Notes under the pieces: model-generated | Seen by the model: only the letters and a program-made list of their open reading frames with translations | The model's database searches: none | What the model was told of the DNA's origin: nothing | Shown here: positions 19,185 through 64,000 of the stretch, piece after piece | Position numbering within the stretch: the stretch's first letter is position 1 | Layout of the letters: every line of letters begins with the position of its first letter | Program-made: the position numbers and the translations under genes | Source: Semisulcospira habei | Lineage: Eukaryota > Mollusca > Gastropoda > Semisulcospiridae | Assembly: GCA_036245525.1 (NCBI GenBank) | Contig: BTPG01000003.1 | Span: forward strand, 158,441,897 to 158,505,896 | Direction: 5' to 3' | Length of the DNA: 64,000 bases

Positions 19185-20035
19185 ATCCACACCTGTGAGT
19201 AAAAGTCTGAGTCACACCAGGCCCGCCTGGAAGGCTCGGGGCGGGGGTGGTGGGGACAGAAAGTGTCTCACCAAGCCCGCTCAGGAAAGGCAGAGCGGGG
19301 AGGGGACACCTGGGCGCGAAACCGCACCTGTGAGTAAATCTCTGAGTCCCCTGGGGCCCGCCTGGAAAGATCGGGGCGGTGGGGAGGGGACCGAGAAGTG
19401 TCACGTCAAGCTCGCTCAGGAAAAGCGTGGGGGGGGGGGGGGGGGTGGACGGAAAGGTGTCATGCCAGGCCCGCTCAGGAAAAGCGAAGCGGGCAGGGGA
19501 CCAATGGGCGCGCGAAACCGCACCTGAGAGCAAATGTCTGAGACACACCGGGCCCGCCTGGAAAGTTCGGGGCGGGGGGGACAGAAAGGTGTCATGCCAA
19601 GCCCGCTCAGGAATAGCGAAGCGGGGAGGGGACAATTGGGGCGAGCGAATCTGCACCTGTGAATAAATGTCGGAGTCACACCGAGCCCGCCTGGAAAGTT
19701 CGGGGCGGGGGGGGGGGGGGGGGGGGGGAGGGGGGGGGGGGGGGGGGGGGACAGAAGGTGTCACGCCAAGCCCGCTCAGGAAAAGCGAAGTGGGGAGGGG
19801 GCAAAAGGTGCGCACAAATCCGCACCTGTGCGTAAAAGTCTGAGTCACACCGGGCCCGCCTGAAAAGTTCGGGGTGGGGGGGGGGGGGGGCCAGAAAGGT
19901 GTCACGCCAAGCCCGCTCAGGAAAAGCGAAGCGGGGAGGGGACAAATGGTGCGCACGAATCCGCACCTGTGAGTAATTGTCTGAGTGACACCGGGCCCGC
20001 CTGGAAAATACGGGGTGGGAGGGGGGGGGGAACAG
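19185..20035. repeat. Minisatellite in the gag/leader part of E3
   Basis: About six tandem units begin CACCTGTGAGTAAAWGTCTGAG near 19190, 19326, 19521, 19656, 19823 and 19964. Each continues GGGCCCGCCTGGAAAG, a variable G-run, and AAGCCCGCTCAGGAAAAGCG. Spacing varies from about 135 to 195 bp because the G-runs expand and contract (up to about 50 G with few interruptions at 19706-19750). Confidence 0.85.
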
Positions 20036-20624
20036 AAACCGACATAGCGACGCCATCCTGCGGAGAAGTCTGGGGAGAACGTTGAGACCAGGAAGAAAGG
20101 ACACGTCTGTAGGATCCCACACCTGAGACCGCCAGTCCTCACTCCCGTCGGCACACACGTCACACATCCTGTCGGAAGAGCAGTCAGAGCACGACTGGCA
20201 GGCGACGAGGGCGTCTGAGGGCCACAGAAATCCTCACAAAAGGGGGCAAAACTTCAACAGAAGCCGCCATAGCATTCGTTGTACACTGTTCACAGGAAGG
20301 AACACACTCAAGCGCCGAACTCACACCGCGAGGCAAAAGCCACATGAGTAAAGTCACAAGCTGAAACCAAGGCTGCAGCCAAGGACGAAGTTCACTGAAA
20401 GTCAAACCGGTCGGCGCTAAGTCCACACACAGTAAAAACGTTGAAGTGTAGAACACACCAACGAAGTACACTGAGTCCAAGGAGAAGTCAAAAACAAGGC
20501 AAAAAGCCAAGTAGTAGTAACCACAGAAGAACCGGTCAAAAACCGTAGCAAGGCAAAAGCCCGACCGTCCACGGTCGAGCTAAGAGTGAAACTGAGGTGA
20601 GTTCTCCACACGCTTGCCGGTATA
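20036..20624 (-). other. Leader of DIRS E3
   Basis: Sequence between the minisatellite and the right terminal repeat. It contains a decayed gag N-terminal segment (CDVCADGSEDW-like near 20130-20165) and AAGTCACA-type short repeats. No intact ORF. Confidence 0.45.
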
Positions 20625-29235: not shown

Positions 29236-31173
29236 AGGGTCCGGGCGGAAGAAAGCAGCGGTCAACAACAGTCGCACGAGAGCAGCCAAAGTAAGGGCAC
29301 AGGGGGAATACTCGGAAGCCAACCGCGAGGTGAAGAGGAGTATCAGGGCAGACAAGAGGGCCTACACAGACAGCCTGGCAGCAGAGGCAGAAAAGGCAGC
29401 AGGCAGCGGCAACATGAAACAGCTCTACGACATTACCAGAAGATTGTCGGGTAAGTATGGCCATACAGAAAGACCAGTAAAAGACAAAGAAGGCAAGCCT
29501 ATTGCAGACAGAGCAGACCAACTCGACAGATGGGCCGAGTATTTTGAAGAGTTACTGAACAGACCTAGCCCACCCGACCCCCCCGACATCCAGCCGGCAG
29601 AGACCGACCTACCCATCAGCTGTGACAGACCCAGCCGGGAAGAGATCAGAAAAGCAGTGGCATTTTTGAAGAATGGCAAAGCAGCAGGGCCAGATGGCAT
29701 CCCAGCGGAGTCTCTGAAAGCAGACCTAGAGACAACAGTTGAGATGCTGTACCCACTGTTTGGAAAGATCTGGGAAGAGGAGGTGATGCCAGCTGACTGG
29801 AAGGAGGGGTACCTAATCAAGCTTCCCAAGAAAGGCGACCTCAGCAAGTGTTCCAACTACAGAGGAATCACCTTGCTGTCAGTACCAGGAAAGGTCTTCA
29901 ACAGGATCATCCTAGAGAGAATGAAGAGCTCCGTTGACCCCCAGCTGGGAGACCAGCAAGCAGGATTCAGGAAGAACCGATCATGTACAGACCAGATCGC
30001 CACTCTCCGCATCATCGTGGAACAGTCTCTGGAGTGGAGCTCCCCGCTGTACGTCAACTTTGTGGATTATGAGAAAGCATTTGACAGCGTGGACCGAGAG
30101 ACTCTGTGGAAACTCCTACGACACTACGGTGTACCCACAAAGCTCGTCCGCCTGATCAAGAGCAGCTATGATGGCATGACATGTCGCATGATCCACGAAG
30201 GGCAGTTCACCAGAGAGCTCCAGGTCAGAACAGGTGTCAGGCAGGGGTGTCTGCTGTCTCCGTTCCTCTTCCTACTGGCCATAGACTGGGTCATGAAGAT
30301 GACCACAGAGCACAGACGAAGTGGAATACAGTGGACACTGTGGACACAGCTTGACGACCTCGATTTTGCAGACGACTTGACATTACTGTCCCACACTCAT
30401 CAACAAATGCAGGACAAGACCACGAGGCTTGCTGACATCTCGTCCCAAGTGGGCCTCACCATTCACAAACAGAAAACAAAGACAATGAGGCTGAACGCAA
30501 CCAGGGAAGAACCAGTCTTGCTTGCTGCACCCCGTTGGAGGAGGTGGAGTCCTTCACCTATCTTGGGAGCATCATAGACAAAAAAGGCGGCACTGATGCA
30601 GATGTCAGAGCACGAATCGGTAAAGCCAGAGCAGCCTTTCTCCAGTTGAAAAAAGTGTGGAGTTCCAGAGAGCTGTCACAACACACCAAAGTCCGGATTT
30701 TCAACTCCAATGTAAAAGCAATTCTCCTATATGGAGCAGAGACATGGAGATTGACAAAAACCACAGTCAACAGAGTACAGACCTTCATGAACAGTTGCCT
30801 TAGAAGAATTTTGAAAATCCACTGGCCAGAGAAGATCAGCAACGTCAGACTCTGGGAGAGAACAGAGCAGATAACAGCAGAGAATGAAATTGGGTGAAGA
30901 AGATGGGGATGGATCGGTCACAGTCTGAGAAAGCCAGCTTCCAGTATCACTAGGCAGGCATTGTCATGGAACCCCCAGGGAAAGAGGAAAAGAGGTAGGC
31001 CGAGAAACTCCTGGCGTCGAGACCTCCAAGCAGACATCAAGAGACTGGGAACCACCTGGAGTAAAATCGAAGGAGAAGCACAGGACAGGAGTTGCTGGAG
31101 GTCTCTCGTCGACGGCCTATACCCGGGTAGGGGTGACAGGCGTAAGTAAGTAAGTAAGTAAGGGTCCGGGCGG
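29236..31173 (+). mobile_element. 5'-truncated LINE inserted in DIRS E5, 13-bp TSD
   Basis: AGGGTCCGGGCGG is present at 29236-29248 and 31161-31173. The 1912 bp between them are a non-LTR retrotransposon on the plus strand: RT domain, C-terminal zinc-like region, then GACAGGCGTAAG and TAAG repeats as tail. The 5' end (endonuclease) is missing. It is inserted antisense to the recombinase gene of E5. Two further copies lie at 7650-7781 and 44149-45328. Confidence 0.93.
29249..31137 (+). pseudogene. LINE reverse transcriptase (frameshift and nonsense)
   Basis: Open from the insertion edge to 30577. It shows GKAAGPDGIPAE, LLSVPGKVFNRIIL, DQQAGFRKNRSCTDQI, VDYEKAFDSVDR, GVRQGCLLSPFLF and a FADD catalytic box near 30370. 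A frame change near 30527 moves the reading to 30535-30897 (TYLGSIIDK, LYGAETW). A TGA at 30895 replaces an Arg codon of the 44-kb copy. The rest (GKRKRGRPRNSWRRD to WRSLVDGL) is open to the tail. It is an inactive copy. Confidence 0.9.
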
Positions 31174-44148: not shown

Positions 44149-45328
44149 TACTTACTTACTTACGCCTGTCACCCCTGATCCCCATGTATAGGCCGTCGAC
44201 GAGAGACCTCCATCGACTCCTGTCCTGTGCTTCTCCTTCGATTTTACTCCAGATGGTTCCCAGTCTCTTGATGTTTGCTTGGAGGTGTCGACGCCAGGTG
44301 TTTCTCGGCCTGCCTCTTTTCCTCTTTCCCTGGGGGTTCCATGACAATGCCTGCCTAGTGATACTGGAAGCTGGCTTTCTCAGACTGTGACCAATCCATC
44401 CCCATCTTCTTCGCCCAATTTCATTCTCTGCTGTTATCTGCTCTGTTCTCTCCCAGAGTCTGACGTTGCTGATCTTCTCTGGCCAGTGGATTTTCAAAAT
44501 TCTTCTAAGGCAACTGTTTATAAAGATCTGTACTCTGTTGATTGTGGTTTTTGTCAATCTCCAAGTCTCTGCTCCATATAGGAGAACTGCTTTTACGTTG
44601 GAGTTGAAAATCCGGACTTTGGTGTGTTGTGACAGCTCTCTAGAACTCCACACTTTTTTCAACTGGAGAAAGGCTGCTCTGGCTTTACTGATTCGTGCTT
44701 GGATATCTGCATCAGTGCCGCCTTTTTTTGTCTATGATGCTCCCAAAATAGGTGAAGGACTCCACCTCCTCCAAAGGGGTGCCAGCAAGCAAGACTGGTT
44801 CTTCCCTGGTTGCGTTCAGCCTCATTGTCTTAGTTTTCTGTTTGTGGATGGTGAGGCCCACTTGGGACGAGATGTCAGCAAGCCTCGTGGTCTTGTCCTG
44901 CATTTGTTGATGAGTGTGGGACAGTAAAGCCAAGTCGTCTGCAAAATCGAGGTCGTCAAGCTGTGTCCACAGTGTCCACTGTATTCCACTTCGCCTGTGC
45001 TCTGTGGTCCTCTTCATGACCCAGTCTATGGCCAGTAGGAAGAGGAATGAAGACAGCAAACACCCCTGCCTGACACCGGTTCTGACCTGGAGCTCCCTGG
45101 TGAACTGCCCTTTGTGGATCACGCGACATGTCATGCCATCGTAGCTGCTCTTGATCAGGCGGACGAGCTTTGTGGGTACACCGCAGTGTCGTAGGAGTTT
45201 CCACAGAGTCTCTCGGTCCACGCTGTCAAATGCTTTCTCGTAATCCACAAAGTTGACGTACAGCGGGGAGCTCCACTCCAGAGACTGTTCCACGATGATG
45301 CGGAGAATGGCGATCTGGTCTGTACATG
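44149..45328 (-). mobile_element. 5'-truncated LINE copy
   Basis: Same family as 29.2-31.2 kb, inserted in reverse, with TTAC repeats (tail) at 44149-44163. It is truncated inside RT at about 45328 (just after the DQIA block). It sits between two DR1 repeat arrays of opposite orientation. I could not define a target duplication. Confidence 0.9.
44160..45328 (-). pseudogene. LINE RT C-terminal two thirds
   Basis: Frames 44712-45293 (VDYEKAFDSVDRETLWK, GVRQGCLLSSFLF, LDFADDLALL) and 44156-44662 (LYGAETWRLTKTTINR, GRRRWGWIGHSLRKP, GKRKRGRPRNTWRR) are separated by a frame break near 44700. This copy keeps the Arg codon that is a stop in the 29-kb copy but lacks the RT N-terminus. Confidence 0.88.
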
Positions 45329-53132: not shown

Positions 53133-53462
53133 CAGTCGCCGGGTGTTCAGGCTCAGTGTTTCTCGGCAGTGATCAAGGCCGGGTACCAAGCAGCAAGTAG
53201 GTGATCATGACTGAGTCAGTTACATTGACCAGCTGAAAACACTGCCCCCGGCCACATGCTCCTCTGGACGTACTGAGCATGACCAGGGCATCATTTTTGG
53301 CCGTCAGTAGTGGGTTCCGGGCCAGCCACGGTCCCGTCAGTCCCTCGGCTGGGCGGCTCGCAATCCAGGTCAAAAAGACGGGCTTGCCTCTACATACCCA
53401 GGAAAGCGGCCACACAGTTGCGGTAGCAGTGCCGGTGCCTACTATGAACTGAAGGTCAAGTT
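53133..53462. other. Host flank of the viral-like element
   Basis: GC-balanced host sequence without a recognisable gene. Base composition drops sharply to AT-rich at about 53461, which I take as the approximate left border of the integrated element. Confidence 0.45.
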
Positions 53463-53671
53463 AGAGATAGATAAATGGGGGATCCCAAACCAATACATTC
53501 AATAAAGCCGCATCCGTCGCTAATTTACGCTATTTTTAATAACAAAATTCAGTTATCCCATTACACTTTCGTTATTTCTGAATCAACCCTTTAATTTTTA
53601 AAAAATGATGAGCATGACGGATGCGACTCTATTGAATTTATTATTTTGGGATCCCCCATTTATCTATCTCT
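53463..53671. repeat. 56-bp inverted repeat at the left border of the element
   Basis: 53463-53518 (AGAGATAGATAAATGGGGGA...CGCATCCGTC) is repeated inverted at 53616-53671 with about five mismatches, around a 97-bp AT-rich spacer. The unit begins AG and ends CT, as Polinton termini do. It may be the element terminus with an inverted copy, or an unrelated foldback element that happens to lie here. Confidence 0.75.
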
Positions 53672-53689
53672 TTATCTCTATCAAGTGAT

Positions 53690-53870
53690 GTCAATCGAAA
53701 CTTAATACTTATTAACAAGTTGCAACTAACTTCTAGGAACCTACATAGGTAACCTTTAAGTGAGTTGCCATAAGAACTTATTAATTACTTACCCTAAGTT
53801 CTTACAACAACTTGACTTAAGTCACAACTTACTCGATCAGTTTTATCAAGATACAAGGACAATAAAAAAA
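53690..53870. other. AT-rich subterminal region
   Basis: Contains many ACTTA/TAAGT motifs in both orientations, including TAAGAACTTA and TAAGTTCTTA (about 53771-53803) and AACTTGACTTAAGTCACAACTT. No gene. It could be a terminal replication or transcription-end region. Confidence 0.4.
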
Positions 53871-53881
53871 CTTTTTTTTTC

Positions 53882-53938
53882 TCAGTAGTACTCTGGCGGT
53901 GGTGCAGATGGCGTCAAATGAGCAGGCATAAAAGGCAT
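53882..53938 (-). CDS. Micro-ORF with PPEY motif
   Basis: ATG at 53938 to TGA at 53882, 18 codons, product ending TPSAPPPEYY. The frame is open further upstream, into the end of the 53995-54606 gene, but without an ATG. PPxY motifs recruit host NEDD4-type ubiquitin ligases in several viruses. It could be the tail of a longer frameshifted protein or chance. Confidence 0.25.
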   Translation of the reverse strand: MPFMPAHLTPSAPPPEYY

Positions 53939-53994
53939 GACATCTCTTTGTGAAGAGTATTTCAGAATTAATGAATGATTACCAAAACTGATCT

Positions 53995-54606
53995 TTACTT
54001 GCCTAACAGTCCGTAAACTTTTTTCATAGTTTCTTCTACGCCTATTTTCTTTCCTTCCTCTAAAAAAGATTTCTTTAGCTCTTCAACATTTACAGCCTGA
54101 CTACGCATCTTATTCTGTATTTCAGATTTTTGTTGTTTATAGTTAGCCAAATCATCCTGGACTCTTTTAAATTCATTATCGTCAATTTCATTATTTTCCA
54201 AAGATTTACTAATAATAAGTTTCATACTCGTCAGCTTAGCTGCTGCGAGCGTACTTAATGCTTCATGCTTCTGCAACTTCATATAAAATCTTTTGTTAAT
54301 AGCTTCCATACCAAAGCATGCTAGACTTGTGACAAGACCAATACCTTCAACAGCAATTCCTACGACACTTCCCACCCCCGTTGCAAACAGAGTTATACCT
54401 CCTACAGATAATCCGGCCGAAACCACCCCCATGGTCATTGATGTGTTGTGTAAAGAATTGAAAACCGTTTTATATCGTCTTTTACATCGAGAGTATTTTG
54501 CTTGTTCTTCTTCCAAATATTTTAATGCTTCTGTAATATTTATTAAACGAAATGAATCTGCCTTTAATGTTTTATCAGATTGTATTTGAGGATACAATGG
54601 TGGCAT
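53995..54606 (-). CDS. Element protein with central membrane segment
   Basis: 203 residues, ATG at 54606 preceded by GCCATAAAAAATG. Residues about 58-101 form one long Gly/Val/Ala-rich hydrophobic stretch (GVVSAGLSVGGITLFATGVG onward), enough for two membrane passes. They are flanked by an N-terminal Lys/Arg/Glu helix and a C-terminal charged helical tail that looks like coiled coil (residues 120-200). No enzymatic motif. Last gene on the left of the element, 19 bp from its neighbour and read in the same direction as the next two. A virion membrane or membrane-active structural protein is a guess. Confidence 0.75.
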   Translation of the reverse strand: MPPLYPQIQSDKTLKADSFRLINITEALKYLEEEQAKYSRCKRRYKTVFNSLHNTSMTMGVVSAGLSVGGITLFATGVGSVVGIAVEGIGLVTSLACFGMEAINKRFYMKLQKHEALSTLAAAKLTSMKLIISKSLENNEIDDNEFKRVQDDLANYKQQKSEIQNKMRSQAVNVEELKKSFLEEGKKIGVEETMKKVYGLLGK

Positions 54607-54625
54607 TTTTTATGGCAAATATTTT

Positions 54626-55492
54626 TTAATCTTCTATTTTATTTTGCAACTCTTCAAATGTATACAATTTGCTAGCGTAATAAAACGAAACAAGATCTAT
54701 GTGTTCCAGGTTTATGAAATTTAGATAAACTAGAGTTGTTTTATCAATCATTACTTTAACGGCAGGGACACTACTCGAAACTTCAAAATCTGTATTGATT
54801 TTTCTAATAGCAATAACAACCTTTGTTGACTCTGCTACTGTGGTATCCCATGTAAGTTTGATTCCCTGGGCGATATCTGCTTCTTTCGCAGCTTCCACAG
54901 ATCTCATGAGAATTTCAAAAACTATTGTCGCTTCTCTATCTATGGTAAAATTTGCTGGTACGAACGAAATAGAAGTATCTGTTCTACCCTTTCTATTTGT
55001 TAGAAGATACCTTCGTTTCCCATACTCTTGAAGTTTTAGTTTTTCTCTGCTATTGGTTTCTGCGGAATAGCTTGGCACAAGACTTACAAACGTTGGCTCA
55101 GAGTTAACAACTTTTTTAAATACTAGGGCACCTTCATCAGTAAAATAAACATAAGGACTGATAAAAACAAACTTTATGTCCCATACAATGGGAACAGGAG
55201 CAAGCGAAACAGGGGTAGGAATAATTACCCATTTATTACCAACATATTTTAAACTGTATAACACATTACTTACTGGAGTAGGAACAGTAACATCACGAAG
55301 TTGACTAAGTTTAGGAAACTGTCTCTCATCTTCAATTGCCTTTCGTTTGTACAACCCAACGGACACAAGTTCAAGGCCATACACTTCTCCTACCTCACCT
55401 TCTTTTTCGAAATCTTGCACGTCAGCTAAATCTTTTAACTCTACTGACGGACATGAAACTGGAATAATTTTTGTCTTCGGGCCGCCACTCAT
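54626..55492 (-). CDS. Unassigned element protein, 288 aa
   Basis: ATG at 55492 (TTGATAAAAAAATGAGTGG). No signal peptide or membrane segment. The middle is rich in Val/Ser/Pro and beta-prone (VIIPTPVSLAPVPIVWDIKF, VFISPYVYFTD). The C-terminus has alternating charged and hydrophobic residues and ends in a Glu-rich helix. I do not recognise the family. Its place between a membrane protein and a possible minor capsid protein suggests a structural role. Confidence 0.75.
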   Translation of the reverse strand: MSGGPKTKIIPVSCPSVELKDLADVQDFEKEGEVGEVYGLELVSVGLYKRKAIEDERQFPKLSQLRDVTVPTPVSNVLYSLKYVGNKWVIIPTPVSLAPVPIVWDIKFVFISPYVYFTDEGALVFKKVVNSEPTFVSLVPSYSAETNSREKLKLQEYGKRRYLLTNRKGRTDTSISFVPANFTIDREATIVFEILMRSVEAAKEADIAQGIKLTWDTTVAESTKVVIAIRKINTDFEVSSSVPAVKVMIDKTTLVYLNFINLEHIDLVSFYYASKLYTFEELQNKIED

Positions 55493-55511
55493 TTTTTTAT
55501 CAAAAATAAAA

Positions 55512-56252
55512 CTATTTAACTTCTAAAACAACAGTAAAATCATGCATTACAACTGGTTTTTCATCTTGATTAGTTACATATAAGCTCAGTGACTCAAAGA
55601 AACTGGAACCTAATTTTTTAAACTGTAAATTAGGAAATCTAATAACTTCAATTTCACAATACGGAGCAGTTCCAGTTGGTAAACATCTCAACAAATCTGA
55701 AGGCTTTCCATTATATATATTTTCAGTCGTGTTTAGTTCTTTTAAATAAACATTTAGCACTGTGTGTACTGACAAATGAACAGGATATATTCCAGTTATT
55801 TTAGTTACATCTTCTGTATAATACCATCCACTAGTACCATTATCTGCAAAACTCATTACCCAATTTATGGGCATTGTATTTCTATCTATTAAACCAAGCA
55901 AATATGCAAGTTCACTTGAAAATACTGGTATACTACCTGTAGGAACTTCTAATTCAACAAGTAAGTTAGCCTGATTTAAAGTTGCTTTAATTTTAAATAT
56001 ATTTTGAAACCAGTTAGCTAACGTACAAAAGTCATAATACCCAGATGGTATAAAGTGTGTATTTTTGTCTACACCACTATTACCAGAATTTGCATAAACA
56101 GCATAAAAACTTGTATCATCAGTTACATTAAACCACTTTACTGTATAAAACATTTCATGGATAGCCACAGCCTTGTTACCATCACGATTATCAATCCCAT
56201 TAGTTAACCACACTGGTTTGCTTGTGTCAATATTTGTTAAGGTAATAAACAT
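55512..56252 (-). CDS. Candidate minor capsid (penton-like) protein
   Basis: 246 residues from ATG 56252, which follows TGATAATAAAA; a longer open frame to 56279 lacks this motif and would overlap the divergent gene. The sequence is beta-rich with few charged runs (HFIPSGYYDFCTLANWFQNI, VHLSVHTVLNVYLKEL, IEVIRFPNLQFKKLGSSFFE, VVMHDFTVVLEV). Length and texture fit a single jelly-roll penton protein as in Polintons and related viruses, but no motif proves it. A structure comparison would decide. Confidence 0.7.
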   Translation of the reverse strand: MFITLTNIDTSKPVWLTNGIDNRDGNKAVAIHEMFYTVKWFNVTDDTSFYAVYANSGNSGVDKNTHFIPSGYYDFCTLANWFQNIFKIKATLNQANLLVELEVPTGSIPVFSSELAYLLGLIDRNTMPINWVMSFADNGTSGWYYTEDVTKITGIYPVHLSVHTVLNVYLKELNTTENIYNGKPSDLLRCLPTGTAPYCEIEVIRFPNLQFKKLGSSFFESLSLYVTNQDEKPVVMHDFTVVLEVK

Positions 56253-56278
56253 TTTTATTATCACATAAAAAAAGCACA
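56253..56278. promoter_or_regulatory. 26-bp divergent intergenic promoter
   Basis: The only sequence between the oppositely oriented ATGs at 56252 (minus) and 56279 (plus). It reads TATTATCACATAAAAAAAGC then ACA. The minus side shows TGTGATAATAAAA before its ATG and the plus side CACATAAAAAAAGCACA, so both A-rich start motifs overlap a shared TGTG/CACA. Confidence 0.55.
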
Positions 56279-57556
56279 ATGGAATTTAAATCACCAACAA
56301 TTGCCATTGTAAACGCGTTTCAATTTAACGTGGATGCCAAATACAATGTCGCACCAACATATGAACAGAAAATAATTCAACTAAATCAGCTTGATATTGC
56401 TGTAAGCGAACAAGATTTATTTCAAGTCAAAGTACCCAACCCTTTTGATCGTTACCTAAACCCTCCAATAACAGACGATGCTACAGCAAGAAAGTGGTCC
56501 TCAAGTCCACTACAGATGTTTCAAAACCAACTTAACTTTGCCATACTGTGTTCAACTACAGGCTGTGGTGTTTCATTCACAGACCATTTGAATCACTCAA
56601 ACAAACTGATTAGGTCTGTCTACCGTTTCCATGTTTATTACCAGCTTAGACGTATTCTGTCAGAACTTCATACACCACTGCCAACTGAATCCAGTTTCAA
56701 CAGATATAACAACCCCATGGATATGAAAGCATTTGAACGCATATGTAATGAATTTAACATCAGCACTAAGTATGACTTCACACAAAAACTTGATGATCAC
56801 AAAGGCATGGGTACATTGTATTACGCTATGAGTCACAGACAATACCCTCAAGATTACTACCCTGGGTACACTTCATTCTCATCAAAATCACAAGTCTGGT
56901 TAGGATCAATAGAGCAGAAACAGTCTAATGCGTGGACCACATTTATTTTAGATAAATCTGACGGGTTTACTCAATCAGGAGTCGAGCGCGTAAATGAGTC
57001 TATCAGAACATATGTCTGGTGTATACTAGGTGCACAATCACTAACAAAATCGAATATTTTGAATGGAAGTGGAAAATTTGAATCACAAAAACAGTTTCTT
57101 GCAAATCTAGAAGATTCAGTAAATTCAGTAGTTGATCTCCCATCAAGCATACAACGCTACCAAGACGTACTCAGATATGCTAGATCAAAAGTTGACTTTG
57201 TAGTTGGCGTCGGGTTATACATGTTACCATCTGATCTTCAACTACAAATTGGAGTAATAACAAATTATAATAATGAAATAGTTGTTGCAGGGAGTAATCA
57301 GAAATTAGGACTTAATCAATCTGTAAACTTGAGTCCAACAACAACCTCTCACATACAACCAGTAACACCACCAGTAACATCAGTAACACAAATATCAACA
57401 CCACCACCTGAACAGATAGTAAAACCAGTAATGTCAATAACAGCCCAAGCATCGGCACAGACACCTGAACCGGCACCAGTACAGTCAGTAACAGGCCAAG
57501 AAAACACACATGAGTCAGAGAGAACTGCATTGGTAATAGGCCTTACTGGATTATGA
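56279..57556 (+). CDS. Unassigned element protein with Pro/Thr tail, 425 aa
   Basis: ATG at 56279. Residues 1-340 look globular: an aromatic- and Gln/Asn-rich alpha/beta sequence with CSTTGCGVSF, NKLIRSVYRFHVYYQLRRIL and VDFVVGVGLYMLPSDLQLQI stretches. Residues about 350-412 are a low-complexity Pro/Thr/Val/Gln tail with repeated PVT and TPEP motifs, like a linker or exposed stalk. No catalytic motif was recognised. It converges on the next gene with only 3 bp between the stop codons. Function unknown; possibly a virion or attachment-related structural protein. Confidence 0.75.
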   Translation: MEFKSPTIAIVNAFQFNVDAKYNVAPTYEQKIIQLNQLDIAVSEQDLFQVKVPNPFDRYLNPPITDDATARKWSSSPLQMFQNQLNFAILCSTTGCGVSFTDHLNHSNKLIRSVYRFHVYYQLRRILSELHTPLPTESSFNRYNNPMDMKAFERICNEFNISTKYDFTQKLDDHKGMGTLYYAMSHRQYPQDYYPGYTSFSSKSQVWLGSIEQKQSNAWTTFILDKSDGFTQSGVERVNESIRTYVWCILGAQSLTKSNILNGSGKFESQKQFLANLEDSVNSVVDLPSSIQRYQDVLRYARSKVDFVVGVGLYMLPSDLQLQIGVITNYNNEIVVAGSNQKLGLNQSVNLSPTTTSHIQPVTPPVTSVTQISTPPPEQIVKPVMSITAQASAQTPEPAPVQSVTGQENTHESERTALVIGLTGL

Positions 57557-57559
57557 ATA

Positions 57560-58768
57560 TTACTTCTTTACCTGTTTCATTAAGTATCCTATAATTAACC
57601 CTCCTACTGTTACCAAAAATATCCATACATGCTCTGCCATAAACCCTACTACCTTTGCTGTAGTACTAATAAGCCAACTGACAACACTACCTATAATACC
57701 TGGTAAAGCATCTGCTGCTTTTACAGCTAATTTTTTAAGCAAGTCTGATATGTGAGACAACTGTTTTTTTACCCACGTCTGTAAATCTTTTGGGTCTGAT
57801 GGAGTTGGAGGAGCTGGAGGTGCTGGACTACTACCACCACCTGTTACAGCTAACACTACAGTACTAATAATAAACCCCAGAGCTGTAATTAAACTGGCAA
57901 TTGTGATACCCTGTTCTCTGAAAAGTGTTTTTAATCTCTCAGTCAAAGTTGTATCCTCATTAAGTATTTTCTGAATAGTTTCTCTAATTCTGTTGACCTG
58001 TGTTTTCAGTTTTTCTTTTCCATTTTCAATCACTTCTAGTCGCGCTGATCTTTCTGTATACAAATCTTTTAATCTGTGTTGTATTCTTTCTTTCATTTCT
58101 ATGTCATAATTCCCATTATCTGCTGTAGCCAGTTTCTCTTTTTCTCTTTCAATATGATTATCAAGTTCACCCAGTTTAGCTACATTATTCAAAAGCTCAC
58201 CTCTTATTGTCTGCAGTGTTTTATCCAACGCAGCTAACTCCCTCTTTGTCAAAGGAGAGTCACCAATTGTTTTTAATTCCTCATTTATTTGTCCTTCTGT
58301 AAATGATGTTTCTTGTATTACTGTGTTTGCTATTTCTGGTAGGCTTGTTACTGGTGCCACATCAATTTCTTGTCCTGTTGGCAACCTTGTTTGCGCATCA
58401 TGAAGAGCACTAACAACTCGAGGTGGCAACCTTTTATCACCAACACCAAGTTGACGCAAGGCACCAACACCACCTTCTTTTTTGATTGTACCTAAAGCTC
58501 TAAACTTAGTAGGGTCTTTTTTGTTAGTCAATTGTATTTTTCCTTTGTCAATAGTTTTTAAATATAAATGTCCTTTTTCATATTCAAACTGATTAGGATC
58601 TATTTGATATGGACGCTCATTAACACTATCATAAAACGAGTTAACTTTACTTTGTAAAAGTTCCTGTTGTAAAAAAGAAGTATTACTCGACATATCTGTT
58701 ACACTATTATCAGAGACATTTATGTCATCCATTTTAAAATCTTCATGATTAAATCCTCCCGCTGCCAT
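57560..58768 (-). CDS. Coiled-coil and membrane-anchored element protein, 402 aa
   Basis: ATG at 58768 (TTAATAAAACAATGG). Layout: acidic/polar N-terminus (1-60); a small domain with RALGTIKKEGGVGALRQLG near 90-115; a long coiled coil (about 170-285) rich in Glu/Lys/Leu; a hydrophobic segment ASLITALGFIISTVVLAV near 290-310; a Pro linker (PAPPAPPTP); an amphipathic helix; and a second hydrophobic pair ending in VWIFLVTVGGLIIGYLM (about 380-397). From memory, proteins with this unusual C-terminal plan recur as uncharacterised proteins in cnidarian and other invertebrate genomes. A virion membrane or membrane-penetration role is only inferred. Confidence 0.8.
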   Translation of the reverse strand: MAAGGFNHEDFKMDDINVSDNSVTDMSSNTSFLQQELLQSKVNSFYDSVNERPYQIDPNQFEYEKGHLYLKTIDKGKIQLTNKKDPTKFRALGTIKKEGGVGALRQLGVGDKRLPPRVVSALHDAQTRLPTGQEIDVAPVTSLPEIANTVIQETSFTEGQINEELKTIGDSPLTKRELAALDKTLQTIRGELLNNVAKLGELDNHIEREKEKLATADNGNYDIEMKERIQHRLKDLYTERSARLEVIENGKEKLKTQVNRIRETIQKILNEDTTLTERLKTLFREQGITIASLITALGFIISTVVLAVTGGGSSPAPPAPPTPSDPKDLQTWVKKQLSHISDLLKKLAVKAADALPGIIGSVVSWLISTTAKVVGFMAEHVWIFLVTVGGLIIGYLMKQVKK

Positions 58769-58809
58769 TGTTTTATTAATTTATTATTTTTTTATTGTGC
58801 ATAATAAAA
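58769..58809. promoter_or_regulatory. 41-bp divergent intergenic promoter
   Basis: Between the coiled-coil protein (minus) and the probable major capsid gene (plus). Entirely A/T apart from a TGTGC near the plus side. On the plus side TTGTGCATAATAAAA runs directly into ATG; on the minus side TTAATAAAACA runs into ATG. Confidence 0.6.
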
Positions 58810-60096
58810 ATGACACAGTCTTACGGATCAAAGTTAGACCCATACAGAAAACTACGTGAGCCCCTGGGTGTTAAGGGCATAAGACAATCAATCGTCATCA
58901 CAAACAATCCTAGTACCATAGACCAGAATCAAACACTTACAGTCAAGTTTCCAAACCTAGGTCCCAGTGACGTTATTGTTCCTGGCACTGCACGCCTAGC
59001 ATTTAATATTGAACTATCATCAGAGGCAGATGTAAACAGAACACTGGTTGACAATCTTGGCAGAGCAATTGTTAGAACTATTAAAGTAAAACTTGAAGGA
59101 CAGGAAGTGTTTAGTCTTGATGACTCAGATGTATTCTACTGTTACAAAGACCTTTGGCTAACAAGAGAAGAACGAGAGGATCGTATTTACCAAGGCATAC
59201 AGTCTGATAATGTTGGTAAACTTCGAATCAATGCTGGAGATAAAGTAACTACTGGGGTACCAAAGGAAGTTATAATGGCTGAAACATATGGATCCAGATT
59301 CTACATTCCACTTGAGTTTGAAATTCTAACAGCTCATTTGCCTTATTATCAAGGGGCACTGAATGACCGTCTGAGCTTTGAACTAACTTTCAATGACTAC
59401 TCCAAAGTTATTAAATCATCTGCCACAGATGCAACATATAAGATCTCTAACATTTCCTTGGAATATGAAATTGTCACACATACTGAACTAGCCAGACTCA
59501 TTCAAAATCAGTATCAGTCAAGACTTCCAATTTATTATGACCGGGTGATTAGACATAGTTTAATACCCAAAGACAAGAGTGACCCAATGTGGAACATAAA
59601 CTTGAACACGCCTGCCAGGTCACTGAAAGGTATTCTTATGTTGTTTGTTGAACCAGCGGCTCCATACAAACGGGATTCAGAAAAATTCTACAATCCTAAG
59701 ATTACACATTTGTCCTGTACAATCGAAGGCCGCCCTAATCAAGTGTACGCTTCAGGAATGTTACCTTATCAACACTACGATGAGATCACAAAGTATTTTG
59801 CAGGTGGAAGGATTAGAGAAAAACCAGCAAACACAGCATCTAAAGATCTGCATCTGTATGACGTTAGGATCGGACAATACCTTACAAACAAGTATGCACT
59901 GTGGCTAGACCTGCGTAGTACAGATGATGACTATCTTCATGGGTCAGGACGAACTGTTGAGAATGGTAGTGATGGAATAACAATTCAGATACAAAAAAAG
60001 GTTGAAACTGCTGCAGCCATAAACATATATTTGTATCTAATTTATGACGCACAACTCAATATTGCAGAAAGCAGACTGAGTGGACACATATATTAA
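58810..60096 (+). CDS. Probable major capsid protein (double jelly roll)
   Basis: 428 residues from the ATG at 58810, chosen because it follows TTGTGCATAATAAAA; an upstream in-frame TTG is unlikely. The protein is beta-rich and has no membrane segment or enzyme motif. An N-terminal block DQNQTLTVKFPNLGPSDVIV and PGTARLAFNIEL is followed by RTIKVKLEGQEVFSLDDSDV and YKDLWLTREEREDR. A second half has a similar strand-rich texture (HLSCTIEGRPNQVYASGML, VETAAAINIYLYLIYD). Size, beta content and position directly before the packaging ATPase fit the double jelly-roll capsid proteins of Polinton-type elements. Identification is by context and texture, not by a signature motif. Confidence 0.72.
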   Translation: MTQSYGSKLDPYRKLREPLGVKGIRQSIVITNNPSTIDQNQTLTVKFPNLGPSDVIVPGTARLAFNIELSSEADVNRTLVDNLGRAIVRTIKVKLEGQEVFSLDDSDVFYCYKDLWLTREEREDRIYQGIQSDNVGKLRINAGDKVTTGVPKEVIMAETYGSRFYIPLEFEILTAHLPYYQGALNDRLSFELTFNDYSKVIKSSATDATYKISNISLEYEIVTHTELARLIQNQYQSRLPIYYDRVIRHSLIPKDKSDPMWNINLNTPARSLKGILMLFVEPAAPYKRDSEKFYNPKITHLSCTIEGRPNQVYASGMLPYQHYDEITKYFAGGRIREKPANTASKDLHLYDVRIGQYLTNKYALWLDLRSTDDDYLHGSGRTVENGSDGITIQIQKKVETAAAINIYLYLIYDAQLNIAESRLSGHIY

Positions 60097-60115
60097 AATT
60101 ATATTGTGTATTAAA

Positions 60116-60718
60116 ATGAACCTAATGACACTCGACCCACACTGTGGATTGTTTTGTGGTGCCACAGGGTGTGGGAAAACTGAATTTGTACTTAACCTCT
60201 TACAAACAAGATACATCCACCATTTTGAAAACATTGTAATATTTTGTCCAACAATAAAACACAACAAAGCTTATCACAACCGTTTATTCATTTGGACTGA
60301 CAGTAATATCTATTTAGTCGACCCTGAGAAAAAACTGAATGACTACCTACAATATTTTTACAAGCAATTTGAAGGACAGCCAACATTGTTTATTGTTGAT
60401 GACTGTTCTGCAGAGAAAGATATTGTCAAAAAGAGAAATACTTTAGCAGAACTTGCCTTCAGTGGCAGACACGCAAACATCAGTGTTTGGATTCTCACTC
60501 AGAAATATAATGCTGTACTAAAAGATTTTCGAGAACAGTTAAAGTTTATCTGTTTGTTTTACTGTAAGGATCGTGACAGCTTCGAAGACTGTCTCAGAGA
60601 AAACGATGTCATCCCCAACAAACACGAACGAGTCATTGTGAAAAACAAACTGAAATCAACTAAGCATCTAAAGCTTATCTTAAAGACAGATCAGCCCACT
60701 GGGTATGGGTTAATTTAG
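60116..60718 (+). CDS. Packaging-type P-loop ATPase (A32/FtsK-HerA-like)
   Basis: 200 residues from the ATG at 60116 (TTGTGTATTAAAATG), 19 bp after the capsid gene. Walker A GATGCGKT is at residues 15-22. Walker B TLFIVDD is at 90-96 with two Asp and a following acidic residue. A sensor-type WILTQKY with Gln129 follows a SGRHANIS segment. The compact length and motif spacing match the genome-packaging ATPases of Polintons, adintoviruses and large DNA viruses, which drive DNA into the capsid. This is one of the two firm hallmark genes of the element. Confidence 0.9.
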   Translation: MNLMTLDPHCGLFCGATGCGKTEFVLNLLQTRYIHHFENIVIFCPTIKHNKAYHNRLFIWTDSNIYLVDPEKKLNDYLQYFYKQFEGQPTLFIVDDCSAEKDIVKKRNTLAELAFSGRHANISVWILTQKYNAVLKDFREQLKFICLFYCKDRDSFEDCLRENDVIPNKHERVIVKNKLKSTKHLKLILKTDQPTGYGLI

Positions 60719-60739
60719 CCTTTTGTTTTGTCCATAAAA

Positions 60740-61141
60740 ATGATGGACAGACAAAGCGGGCAAGCATTTGATATCACACAGAGCTTCAGAGGTGTTGTGC
60801 GTTTTAATGACTTAAAAAAACAAGTTAAACACCCTTTGATAAAACTCTCAACACCAACGAAAATATACATGATATATAATGTAACTTTTATATATTCTAA
60901 TAGACCACCACGTTATAATTACAAGACTGTTGATCTTAAGACACAAGATTTTATAGTTTATGATGCTAACTGTGACTGGTTTGAGAGTATGTGTTTACAC
61001 ATATTTTACCAAATAAGTAAACAACATGATTATATTGAATTTGTTACTGTCAATAAAGTGATATTACACCTGCAGCATGAGCACAAGACCTTAAGACACA
61101 TACCAGGAAAGTGGATGATTTGTTGGGATTACAGTCAATAA
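60740..61141 (+). CDS. Small unassigned element protein, 133 aa
   Basis: ATG at 60740 in GTCCATAAAAATGATGG; a second ATG follows directly. The protein mixes Lys, Tyr and hydrophobic residues (KIYMIYNVTFIYSNRPPRYN, YDANCDWFESMCLHIFYQIS, GKWMICWDYSQ end). No motif was recognised. It lies between the ATPase (21 bp) and the polymerase (58 bp) on the same strand, so it is probably co-expressed with them. Confidence 0.7.
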   Translation: MMDRQSGQAFDITQSFRGVVRFNDLKKQVKHPLIKLSTPTKIYMIYNVTFIYSNRPPRYNYKTVDLKTQDFIVYDANCDWFESMCLHIFYQISKQHDYIEFVTVNKVILHLQHEHKTLRHIPGKWMICWDYSQ

Positions 61142-61199
61142 AGTGCCATTTTACACTATATAATTTTCTATTTATTTTTTTGTCGGACAAATAAAAAAG
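61142..61199 (+). promoter_or_regulatory. Polymerase gene leader
   Basis: 58 bp, AT-rich, with TATATAATTTTCTATTTATT and then TTGTCGGACAAATAAAAAAG directly before the ATG. GTCGGACAAATAAA resembles the GTCCATAAA before the 133-aa gene. An early-type promoter is possible. Confidence 0.4.
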
Positions 61200-64000
61200 A
61201 TGGACAACCGTCAAAGATTAAGAAACGTGTTTCACACAACTGACTTACCTATATCTAATATTTACAATGTCTATGAATCAATAGAAAGATCTTTTTTAGT
61301 TATACAAAATAACCTTCTTTCTGATAGTGTAAAGATTCAGATTGTTGCAAAAATAGAATTTGTCAGAGATGTTGGTGAAGTTATTGTAACGTATATCTCG
61401 ACAAGGCAGCACACAGTTAATTCGAGAAGAGAACTAGAGAAAGTGTTTAGAGAAAGATTGTTACCAGACTTCCATGAAGCAATTGACAGAGCAGAAATGC
61501 AAGGGTCTGGCTGGCATGAAGGCCTTGTACATGAACTACAACTAAAGCAGTCAAGATATCATCCTATTTTAGGCAAATCATGGATACCACTACCAAAAGA
61601 GGTTGTAGACAAAAAGGGTGTGGTCAATATTCAGAACAATGATAATTTCTGTTTTATGTGGTGTGTACTTGCCAAACTGCATTTTGTAAAAACAAAACCT
61701 GAACGTGTATCTAACTATACCAATTTTATAAATGAACTCAACTTCAGTGGCATTGAGTTCCCTGTTAAAATAGAGGACATAGACTTGTTTGAAAAACTAA
61801 ATCCTGGTATATCTGTGAATGTGTTTGTGTGGGAAAATGAATCTGAGAATAAGTTACAGCCAATTAGAGTATCTCCAATTGCCCCAACCTATGGGCAGTC
61901 AGAAGATAAACATGTTGATATGTTACTAATAAGCTCTGGTGATAACTTTCACTACACAATTATTAGGAGTATGTCACGTCTATTTCACAATCATGTAACA
62001 AAACACAAGTGTAAACAGGAAGTTTGTAAAAAATGTTTACAGAGGTTTTCTTCTATTGCAGTAGCACACAAACATGTTTTAAATTGTAGGTCAGCTGATG
62101 ACGTACAAACAGTACTTAAGTATCCAGATCCTGGTAGTCAAGTGTATTTTAAGAACTATGGGAATCAGCAAAAGCTGCCGTTTGTAGTGTATGCAGATTT
62201 TGAATCACTCGTTGTTCCGTATGACGGTCCAATTCCAGAGTCATTACCAAAGACTATAAAATTGAGTGACCAAGTGGTGTGTTCTTTTGGATACATTCTT
62301 GTTAGGTCAGATGGTCAGCATACAGAACCTGTTATCTATAGGGGTGAAAATGCAGCAGCTGAGTTTTTAACAGAAATGAGACATCTGTATATTCAGGTAG
62401 TAAAGTATTTGGAAAACTGTCAGATGCCTTTGGTAATGACAGAAGAAGACAAACAGAATTTTGATGCAGCAGTGATGTGTTGGATTTGTGAACAACCTTT
62501 AGGAGGTGATAAAGTTCATGACCATGATCACATAACTGGACGTTACAGAGGTGCCGCACATAACAAATGTAACTTGTTTTTAAAAATAGATCCAAAAAAA
62601 TATAAACTACCTATCTTTTTCCACAATCTCAAAGGATATGATTCACATATTATCATGCAGGCTGTGGATGAGTCTTACAAAAAAATTAGTTGCATTGCCC
62701 AGACAACAGAGAAATACTTGACTTTTAGATTAGATAAATTAGCATTTTATGACTCTATGCAACATCTGTCTTTAGGTCTTGCTAGTCTGGCAGAAGGACT
62801 GACTGAGTATCCAATAACAAGTAAATATTTTGAGCCGGACTTGATTAAAAAAGGTGTTTATCCATATGAGTACATCAGTGACTGGGTTGTGTTTGAAGAA
62901 ACAAGACTGCCACCAAAAGAGAAATTTTATTCTACACTAACTGGCAAAGGTATTTCTGACTCTGAATATCAACACGCACTTGATGCATGGGGGAAGTTAG
63001 GATGTCAAACAATTGGTGACTATCACGACCAGTACTTGAAAGCTGATGTTTGCTTGCTAGCAGATGTATTTGAAAGTTACCGTGAGAAGGGTTTGTTACA
63101 TTACAGTCTTGACCCAGCTTGCTACATCACTAGTCCTGGCATGACATGGGATGCATTTTTGAAATCCAGTAAGATATTTATAGACCTGTTGTCTGATCGT
63201 ACGATGGGTGAAATGGTGGAACGTGGATTGAGGGGAGGCATTAGTTTAGCAGCAAATAATTATGCCAAGGCAAATAATAAATATCTTGATGACTTTGACC
63301 CCTCAAAGCCAAGGTCATTTATTACGTACGTGGACGCTAACAATTTGTACGGATTCGCGATGTGTGAATTGTTGCCATTAAAAAACTTTTGTTTGTATGA
63401 TTTGTCACAGTATGGCATAAAAAAATTAACAAAATATATTATGGATCGAGGTCAAAATGATGAAAAGGGTTGGATCTTTGAAGTAGACCTGGAGTACCCA
63501 CACCGCCTACATGATTACCATAATGATTATCCATTAGCAGTTGAGAAACTGAGTTTAACGGGGAAAAAAGAAGACACCAAACTTGTACCCAATCTGAATG
63601 ACAAATTTAATTACGTTTGCCACTATCGTTTGTTACAGTTTTACATCAGACATGGTTTAGTACTAAAAAAAGTTCATAGAGGAATTCAATTTGACCAAAG
63701 TGCTTTTATGAAAGATTACATAATGAAGAACACAACATTGCGTGCAAGAGATGGTAACACTGCATTTGACAAAGACTTCTTTAAGCTTATGAACAATGCC
63801 TGTTTTGGTAAGACGATGGAAAATCCTCATCACCGCAAAGATGTGAGACTGGTCACAACTGAATCGGGCGCAATTAAACTTACAAGTAAGCCTCAGTACA
63901 CAGGGTATAAAGAATTTCATCCATCATTGTATGCAGTGTCACTCAAAAAAAAGATTGTTAAACTGGATAAGCCAGTATTTATAGGTATGGCTATTCTGGA
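61200..64000 (+). CDS. polB: Protein-primed family B DNA polymerase (3' end outside window)
   Basis: ATG at 61200; 933 codons are open to the window edge. Residues 1-130 are unassigned. A INIQNNDNFCFMWCVLAKL block near 140-160 is typical of invertebrate Polinton-type polymerases. A C2HC zinc-like motif spans C276, C279, H292 and C296. Exonuclease motifs are YADFES (D333, E335), FFHNLKGYD (N476, D481) and YHDQYLKAD (Y608, D616). Between Exo I and II is an insert with C427, C430, DHDHITG (441-447) and C457, resembling endonuclease VII-type zinc/HNH modules. Polymerase motif A is YVDANNLYG (D712) and motif B is KLMNNACFGKTMEN (from K862). Motif C (DTDS) must lie past 64000. It copies the element genome using a protein primer. 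Confidence 0.95.
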   Translation, partial: MDNRQRLRNVFHTTDLPISNIYNVYESIERSFLVIQNNLLSDSVKIQIVAKIEFVRDVGEVIVTYISTRQHTVNSRRELEKVFRERLLPDFHEAIDRAEMQGSGWHEGLVHELQLKQSRYHPILGKSWIPLPKEVVDKKGVVNIQNNDNFCFMWCVLAKLHFVKTKPERVSNYTNFINELNFSGIEFPVKIEDIDLFEKLNPGISVNVFVWENESENKLQPIRVSPIAPTYGQSEDKHVDMLLISSGDNFHYTIIRSMSRLFHNHVTKHKCKQEVCKKCLQRFSSIAVAHKHVLNCRSADDVQTVLKYPDPGSQVYFKNYGNQQKLPFVVYADFESLVVPYDGPIPESLPKTIKLSDQVVCSFGYILVRSDGQHTEPVIYRGENAAAEFLTEMRHLYIQVVKYLENCQMPLVMTEEDKQNFDAAVMCWICEQPLGGDKVHDHDHITGRYRGAAHNKCNLFLKIDPKKYKLPIFFHNLKGYDSHIIMQAVDESYKKISCIAQTTEKYLTFRLDKLAFYDSMQHLSLGLASLAEGLTEYPITSKYFEPDLIKKGVYPYEYISDWVVFEETRLPPKEKFYSTLTGKGISDSEYQHALDAWGKLGCQTIGDYHDQYLKADVCLLADVFESYREKGLLHYSLDPACYITSPGMTWDAFLKSSKIFIDLLSDRTMGEMVERGLRGGISLAANNYAKANNKYLDDFDPSKPRSFITYVDANNLYGFAMCELLPLKNFCLYDLSQYGIKKLTKYIMDRGQNDEKGWIFEVDLEYPHRLHDYHNDYPLAVEKLSLTGKKEDTKLVPNLNDKFNYVCHYRLLQFYIRHGLVLKKVHRGIQFDQSAFMKDYIMKNTTLRARDGNTAFDKDFFKLMNNACFGKTMENPHHRKDVRLVTTESGAIKLTSKPQYTGYKEFHPSLYAVSLKKKIVKLDKPVFIGMAIL

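Follow-up and report, generated by a model that had tools for sequence, protein, structure and literature searches.

Introduction

What kind of element occupies the right-hand end of a 64,000-nt stretch of the genome of the gastropod Semisulcospira habei, and does it belong to a recently active virus lineage or to junk DNA? The stretch (from here: the window) corresponds to positions 158441897–158505896 of contig BTPG01000003.1 (C3) in a 1.98-Gb assembly of 507 contigs, the contigs C1–C8 of which measure 178 to 344 Mb. An earlier note, made from the letters alone, had described an intact Polinton- or adintovirus-like element in this place, young and possibly of a distinct lineage. Here we report that the young, virus-like character of the element is supported. 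With a probability of about 0.83 it belongs to a large family of endogenous viruses with integrating double-stranded DNA genomes, of the Polinton/adintovirus ("meldvirus") kind, of which it is one copy. We regard this family as a recently active virus lineage and not as junk DNA because there are hundreds of copies, selection of the type expected for a virus, gene swapping between the copies and co-varying hairpin ends.

Extent and core genes of the element

The element is 13,970 bp (~14 kb) long. Its left end lies in the window and its right end in the adjoining 5 kb directly to the right, analysed as a separate locus (L019). A terminal inverted repeat (TIR) of 214 bp occupies positions 53463..53676 and forms an imperfect palindrome with arms at 53463–53518 and 53616–53671. 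The right repeat, at L019:3219–3432 (3,219–3,432 bp past the window end), is 100% identical to the inverted left one, and the 6 bp at 53457..53462 occur again right after the right end as a target-site duplication. Because an identical inverted partner closes the element on its other side, 53463 is the true terminus, exactly where the left edge had been placed; the candidate explanation of 53463–53671 as an unrelated inserted foldback element was rejected for the same reason. The block is AT-rich as described (GC 0.33–0.38 over 54–64 kb), its nine open frames are borne out by the list of open reading frames (ORFs), and the extension to the right suggested in the earlier note contained both an rve integrase and the second terminus. 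The claim of intactness holds in part: the major capsid protein (MCP) is full-length and the family B DNA polymerase (PolB) is open to its stop in L019, but the tail of ORF4 and the integrase are C-terminally shortened, so a wholly intact window copy was rejected.

PolB (ORF9, plus strand) runs from 61200 to 64000 and on to L019:2–643, with 933 aa in the window and 213 aa in L019, and its frame is open across all 933 window codons. Exonuclease and polymerase motifs are present. In addition, PolB carries an OTU-like motif (DNxC at 148–151 plus H251) and an endonuclease-VII/HNH insert at 425–460 (Pfam). Relatives made up 6,898 of 7,990 scored candidates. Judged by its motifs and relatives, the enzyme appears to be of the protein-primed type. 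In a midpoint-rooted tree of 127 PolBs, which was built from top matches and holds no named reference sequences, it belongs to a clade of 23 (support 0.991). C151 and D148 were invariant in 32 aligned rows and H251 was present in at least 90%. No OTU family featured among the 25 Pfam families that these 32 rows matched most often. One relative of the same clade, P0150, bears a EukProt transcript name; a eukaryote sample therefore seems to contain transcripts of some clade member. Nine contigs of metagenome-assembled genomes binned as bacteria or archaea (L002–L010) encode this eukaryotic-virus PolB type at 31–47% identity. By eye, L010 contains further ORFs that resemble an ATPase, a protease and a capsid protein, and in L008 an integrase follows PolB. 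These nine contigs are likely mis-binned viral or host DNA.

The integrase gene lies outside the window on the minus strand (L019:702–1565; Pfam rve, 8.7e-11). It ends ~32 residues before three of the four other copies compared and shares the short form with the remaining one. Among 136 scored copies, 31 were short, at 289–296 (window copy 294), and 105 measured 313 or more. A Pfam scan of the short form in the window copy gave rve only and no chromodomain.

ORF6 (58810..60096, plus strand) had been proposed as a probable capsid protein, and by its fold it is a double jelly-roll MCP, with structure matches in BFVD. The outcome that the earlier note named as refuting, a protein without jelly roll, did not occur. 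The packaging ATPase recognized from motifs in the earlier note is confirmed by Pfam Pox_A32 (8.5e-15) and the PHROGs terminase phrog_2666 (1e-9); this A32-like protein is encoded by ORF7 (60116..60718, plus strand) and has 200 aa from the first ATG.

Copies in the host genome

Copies were collected by MCP, ORF4 and integrase. These lists contain the best-scoring rows only and therefore favour intact copies. Among the best 98 of 10,995 first-look candidates for MCP, all were without stop and 98–100% identical. For ORF4, 97 of the best 99 (of 11,028) were without stop, at 94–100% identity, and for the integrase this applied to all of the best 136 (of 12,341), at 96–100%. Open-framed copies exist. 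Merging the lists gave at least 295 distinct places (126 with integrase only, 70 with ORF4 only, 67 with MCP only and 32 with two or three); among the places with an integrase, some possibly represent related elements whose left parts are different. The 26 places shared by the MCP and ORF4 lists lead to 373 by capture-recapture, and the smaller overlaps of MCP with integrase (9) and ORF4 with integrase (5) would imply a far higher number. Since the lists are not independent samples, we state only the 295 as observed; a copy number of the order of a thousand is our guess from these overlaps.

Five further copies were read in pieces and four of them have the gene set of the window copy. The layout that the earlier note did not recognise is thus not private to the window copy, and its suggestion of a possibly distinct lineage is only partly right. 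The fifth copy has undergone rearrangement, and neither an integrase nor ORF11–13 is seen in its right piece.

The 24-base hairpin tip of the window copy had 306 exact matches in the genome, versus none for the reversed control. Among 100 tip places listed, 46 of 54 ends had both arms and 20 end pairs were spaced by 11.3 to 16.0 kb; 14 ends were without partner within 25 kb, including the left end in the window, the partner of which is past the places listed. Target sites were surveyed in 14 copies including the window copy, of which eight had both ends and readable flanks. The duplication was 5 bp in six of these (in one case an uninformative run of C) and 6 bp in two, the window copy and one other. 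The remaining six comprised one with a truncated left repeat, one with N at the right end, one with its left end absent from the piece and three without a repeat in the pieces. Within each of eight copies, the left and right repeats were 97–100% identical over 210 bp. When 601-bp pieces were inspected at 20 copies, both repeats were present in only two, one of them truncated, because in many copies these parts are displaced or diverged.

At the left end of the copy at C1:178.4 Mb (L063), ~1.4 kb of extra sequence with an ORF13 fragment in opposite orientation separates the left repeat from ORF1, and several other copies have their left ends displaced in much the same way. Pairs of ORF4 in opposite orientation and 5–7 kb apart (C182:23326/28730 and C2:295492993/295499463) suggest inverted or nested elements. 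Two elements whose ends lie exactly the same distance apart, 14,374 bp (C1:64042358–64056732 and C1:159613004–159627378) are perhaps one inserted form that was duplicated.

Selection and recombination

The genes of the element are under purifying selection. Ratios of non-synonymous to synonymous substitution rates (dN/dS) were calculated by gene between the window copy and other copies, selected by MCP score, and pooled. The lower values were 0.03 for MCP, 0.05 for the ATPase, 0.09 for ORF11, 0.11 for the integrase, 0.11–0.13 for PolB, 0.11 for ORF4 and 0.14 for ORF13, the higher ones 0.20 for ORF1, 0.24 for ORF2, 0.32 for ORF5, 0.33 for ORF3, 0.50 for ORF12 and 0.82 for ORF8. Over 28 pairs of eight copies, the MCP mean was 0.023, with the same bias. 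Because copies chosen by MCP bias the MCP value, a less biased sample was drawn: 20 integrase places on the minus strand, hand-picked among the higher-ranking entries of the 136, were inspected where MCP should lie. An MCP or ATPase match was present at 19 of the 20 places; 12 gave a full-length MCP alignment, nine of these without stop. The pooled dS was 0.218 and dN 0.024, yielding a ratio of 0.109; we therefore rejected 0.02–0.03 as an unbiased estimate for MCP, as it came from the best MCP matches.

Synonymous divergence was very unequal between genes of the same copies, with pooled dS from 0.08 to 0.79 (integrase 0.09, ORF2 0.79). Within ORF4 of four copies, dS was 0.34–0.39 over the first 339–344 codons versus 0.03 over the last 76–81, and in a fifth copy it was 0.30 over the whole gene. 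These inequalities between genes and inside ORF4 point to recombination between lineages, with gene swapping among copies. In L012, one more copy, the linker of ORF4 is just 64% identical, with a dN/dS of 1.65 over 75 codons.

Several results speak against an infectious virus family. Neither virions nor transcripts nor a free viral genome of the family were seen, and a viral contig collection searched for MCP relatives yielded none. A Pfam peptidase match was absent at E ≤ 1 from 14 frames of the 13 genes, a divergent maturation protease being possible, and the penton, attachment and membrane roles considered below are inferred. Moreover, decay affects many copies. Among the five other copies, the PolB alignment of three is broken into segments, which we take as frame breaks, and one is rearranged, with a stop in ORF1 of one and in ORF11 of one. 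At the integrase-chosen places, three of the 12 full-length MCP alignments had a stop and eight of the 20 places lacked a full-length MCP in the fetched piece.

Broken genes in several copies, hundreds of integrated places and the lack of virion data would also suit a transposon that spreads only within the genome, its capsid genes acting in cis or being a dispensable inheritance from a virus. The capsid genes of a virion-free element should, however, decay first, and here MCP (0.11 in the less biased sample) and the ATPase (0.05) are as constrained as the polymerase (0.11–0.13) and the integrase (0.11). We consider such a genome-confined transposon improbable.

Hairpin ends

The 214-nt repeat folds as a long hairpin (DNA fold −51.7 kcal/mol, z −12.2 against 200 shuffles). 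Covariation was counted over 51 base pairs in the outer 56-nt arms of nine repeats, eight of them distinct, the structure being derived from one of these sequences. Pairing occurred in 99.8% of cells; 39 of the 51 pairs were invariant, 11 were changed on both sides and one had a single one-sided mismatch. There was no one-sided variation between standard pairs among the 51. The covariation score of 0.164 was reached by none of 500 shuffles, which ignore relatedness, and slid controls gave 0.007–0.055; the number of further pair types was reached by 128 of the 500. By our reading, the changes comprise at least about five separate double-sided events.

Inverted repeats can convert each other. 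Ordinary chromosomal gene conversion between nearby inverted repeats, and not a step of viral replication, could thus have produced the covariation, all the more as there are few types (eight distinct repeat sequences) and as five mismatched arm columns, excluded from the counted structure, persist in most rows and in some cases vary on one side. Against this, 11 of the 12 variable pairs were changed on both sides, the twelfth being the one-sided mismatch in one copy, and the left and right repeats of each copy agree at 97–100%. Gene conversion appears a doubtful explanation to us. If copying of one arm from the other is the cause, it would span mainly the outer 27 nt and would presumably belong to viral replication by a polymerase of this type.

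Relation to known viruses and elements

Published groups are compared here by their description in excerpts of the cited papers. Meldviruses combine an adintovirus-like PolB and integrase with virion proteins resembling those of giant viruses or poxviruses (Buck et al. 2024, PMC11071296) and by this description are the nearest kind. The element likewise joins PolB and an rve integrase to a capsid protein like those of giant viruses and poxviruses and has membrane-active and coiled-coil virion candidates. In contrast to the meldviruses described in that excerpt, it has ORF4, co-varying terminal hairpins and hundreds of places per genome. Adintoviruses, as defined there, have an OTU-like domain ahead of the PolB core, a chromodomain at the C-terminus of the integrase and a hexon that BLASTp can recognise. 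The element shares the rve integrase with them and carries an OTU-like motif that may correspond to this domain; in its short integrase form no chromodomain was found. Polinton-like viruses mostly lack PolB and the RVE integrase according to the excerpt of PMC11071308, whereas the element has both. The 17.4-kb IMG/VR contig L001 resembles it in PolB (35% identical), ATPase (24%, E 2e-7) and an opposite-strand integrase after PolB, but had no tblastn match to MCP or other genes of the element at E ≤ 1. Further ORFs of L001 look capsid-, penton-, lipase-, GIY-YIG-, tail-fibre- and RING-like by eye.

The element works like a Polinton. A PolB apparently of the protein-primed type, an RVE integrase, a packaging ATPase, a double jelly-roll capsid protein and TIRs starting with AGAG are present, and the genes are under purifying selection, as in the excerpts on Polintons and Mavericks (PMC4028283, PMC8097293). 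It could accordingly be a standard Polinton/Maverick, unusual only in its high copy number. Its size is within the 12.7–24.6 kb spanned by intact vertebrate Mavericks (PMC8097293), and an adenovirus/Ulp1-like cysteine protease is present in 74% of Polintons, leaving about a quarter without an identifiable one (Krupovic 2014, PMC4028283). However, vertebrate Mavericks have 6-bp duplications (Barreat 2021, PMC8097293), while 5 bp were found here in six of eight readable copies. ORF4 as a hallmark and the hairpin repeat ends likewise set the element apart, as do its at least 295 places, not all intact, versus at most 38 intact Maverick copies per vertebrate genome (PMC8097293). Since the duplications are mostly of 5 bp and no protease was found, we did not file it as a standard Polinton, which we consider an unlikely assignment, and retain the meldvirus-like family as the preferred reading.

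ORF4 and the remaining genes

ORF4 (56279..57556, plus strand, 425 aa) consists of a helical domain, a Pro/Thr linker and a hydrophobic C-terminal anchor that is cut short in the window copy. The frame closes within the hydrophobic tail, which is nine residues longer in all seven other copies. Relatives were recognized among 573 of 3,767 candidates. When 51 rows were aligned, most of the 26 rows displayed ended with a linker of variable, often Pro-rich sequence followed by a hydrophobic anchor. The structure model has a pLDDT of 85.9, with 301 of its 425 residues reaching at least 90, and structure comparison gave no convincing fold match. We regard ORF4 as a conserved protein in which no fold was recognised and as a hallmark of the lineage. 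Relatives of ORF4, MCP and PolB, in this order, are also present on metagenome contigs that have the same length (13,209: P0241, P0004 and P0125; 12,593: P0326, P0027 and P0203), and those of equal contig size probably sit on the same contigs.

To the left, three minus-strand genes follow the repeat. ORF1 (53995..54606, 203 aa) has a glycine-rich hydrophobic segment, gave nothing above the cut-off in the Pfam scan and is a candidate membrane-active core protein. ORF2 (54626..55492, 288 aa) is divergent, being 67–69% identical to all five copies compared; it had no match in Pfam or PHROGs at E ≤ 1 and is a candidate vertex fibre or attachment protein. ORF3 (55512..56252, 246 aa from the first ATG) is presumably penton-like by position and residue pattern; against solved structures it gave a single weak row (E 1.6). 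ORF5 (57560..58768, minus strand, 402 aa) contains a coiled coil and hydrophobic C-terminal segments. Its identity was 96–99% or 81% in six copies and 56–73% over N-terminal pieces in some integrase-chosen places.

The small gene ORF8 (60740..61141, plus strand) is a hypervariable cassette with three sequence classes (99%, 47–52% and 32–33% identical; seven loci of six copies). It has been swapped or diversified between copies (window and L012–L018, L067) and is possibly a host-interaction factor. Three further small ORFs, ORF11–13 (143, 140 and 182 aa), are located on the minus strand of L019. The flanking host DNA in the window contains two 96% inverted-repeat pairs of ~550 nt (29982–31127 and 44181–45328) and a G-rich tandem array (19437–20038).

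Discussion

In the life cycle that we propose, the integrase would insert linear viral DNA at staggered cuts of 5–6 bp, and the polymerase, with a long N-terminal part and an OTU-like motif as in protein-primed enzymes, would copy the genome from its ends. The repeat ends would form hairpins, the outer arms of which are copied from each other at some replication step. The ATPase would package the genome into the ORF6 capsid with ORF3 as penton, with ORF1, ORF4 and ORF5 as putative membrane-linked or coiled-coil virion proteins, ORF2 as the likely attachment protein and ORF8 as a fast-changing accessory factor. The copies would then stem from repeated infection or reinfection of germ cells and not only from naked-DNA transposition.

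A further-reaching proposal, which we put forward only tentatively, is that of integrating animal viruses which form a lineage at family level and continue to infect their host. They would combine a polymerase of the protein-primed type with hairpin ends, both arms of which are rewritten jointly during replication in the manner of hairpin-telomere viruses, a giant-virus-like capsid and ORF4 as a virion membrane protein of new fold. They would lack a maturation protease and would have left recombining copies, in the order of a thousand, in a single genome.

A single genome with hundreds of Polinton-type virus copies, many of them open-framed, makes selection, recombination and end structure measurable gene by gene. 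The co-varying hairpin ends raise the question of how viruses with this type of polymerase maintain their ends. With the high copy number and the constraint on the capsid, the old question of whether Polintons form particles becomes testable in a living host.

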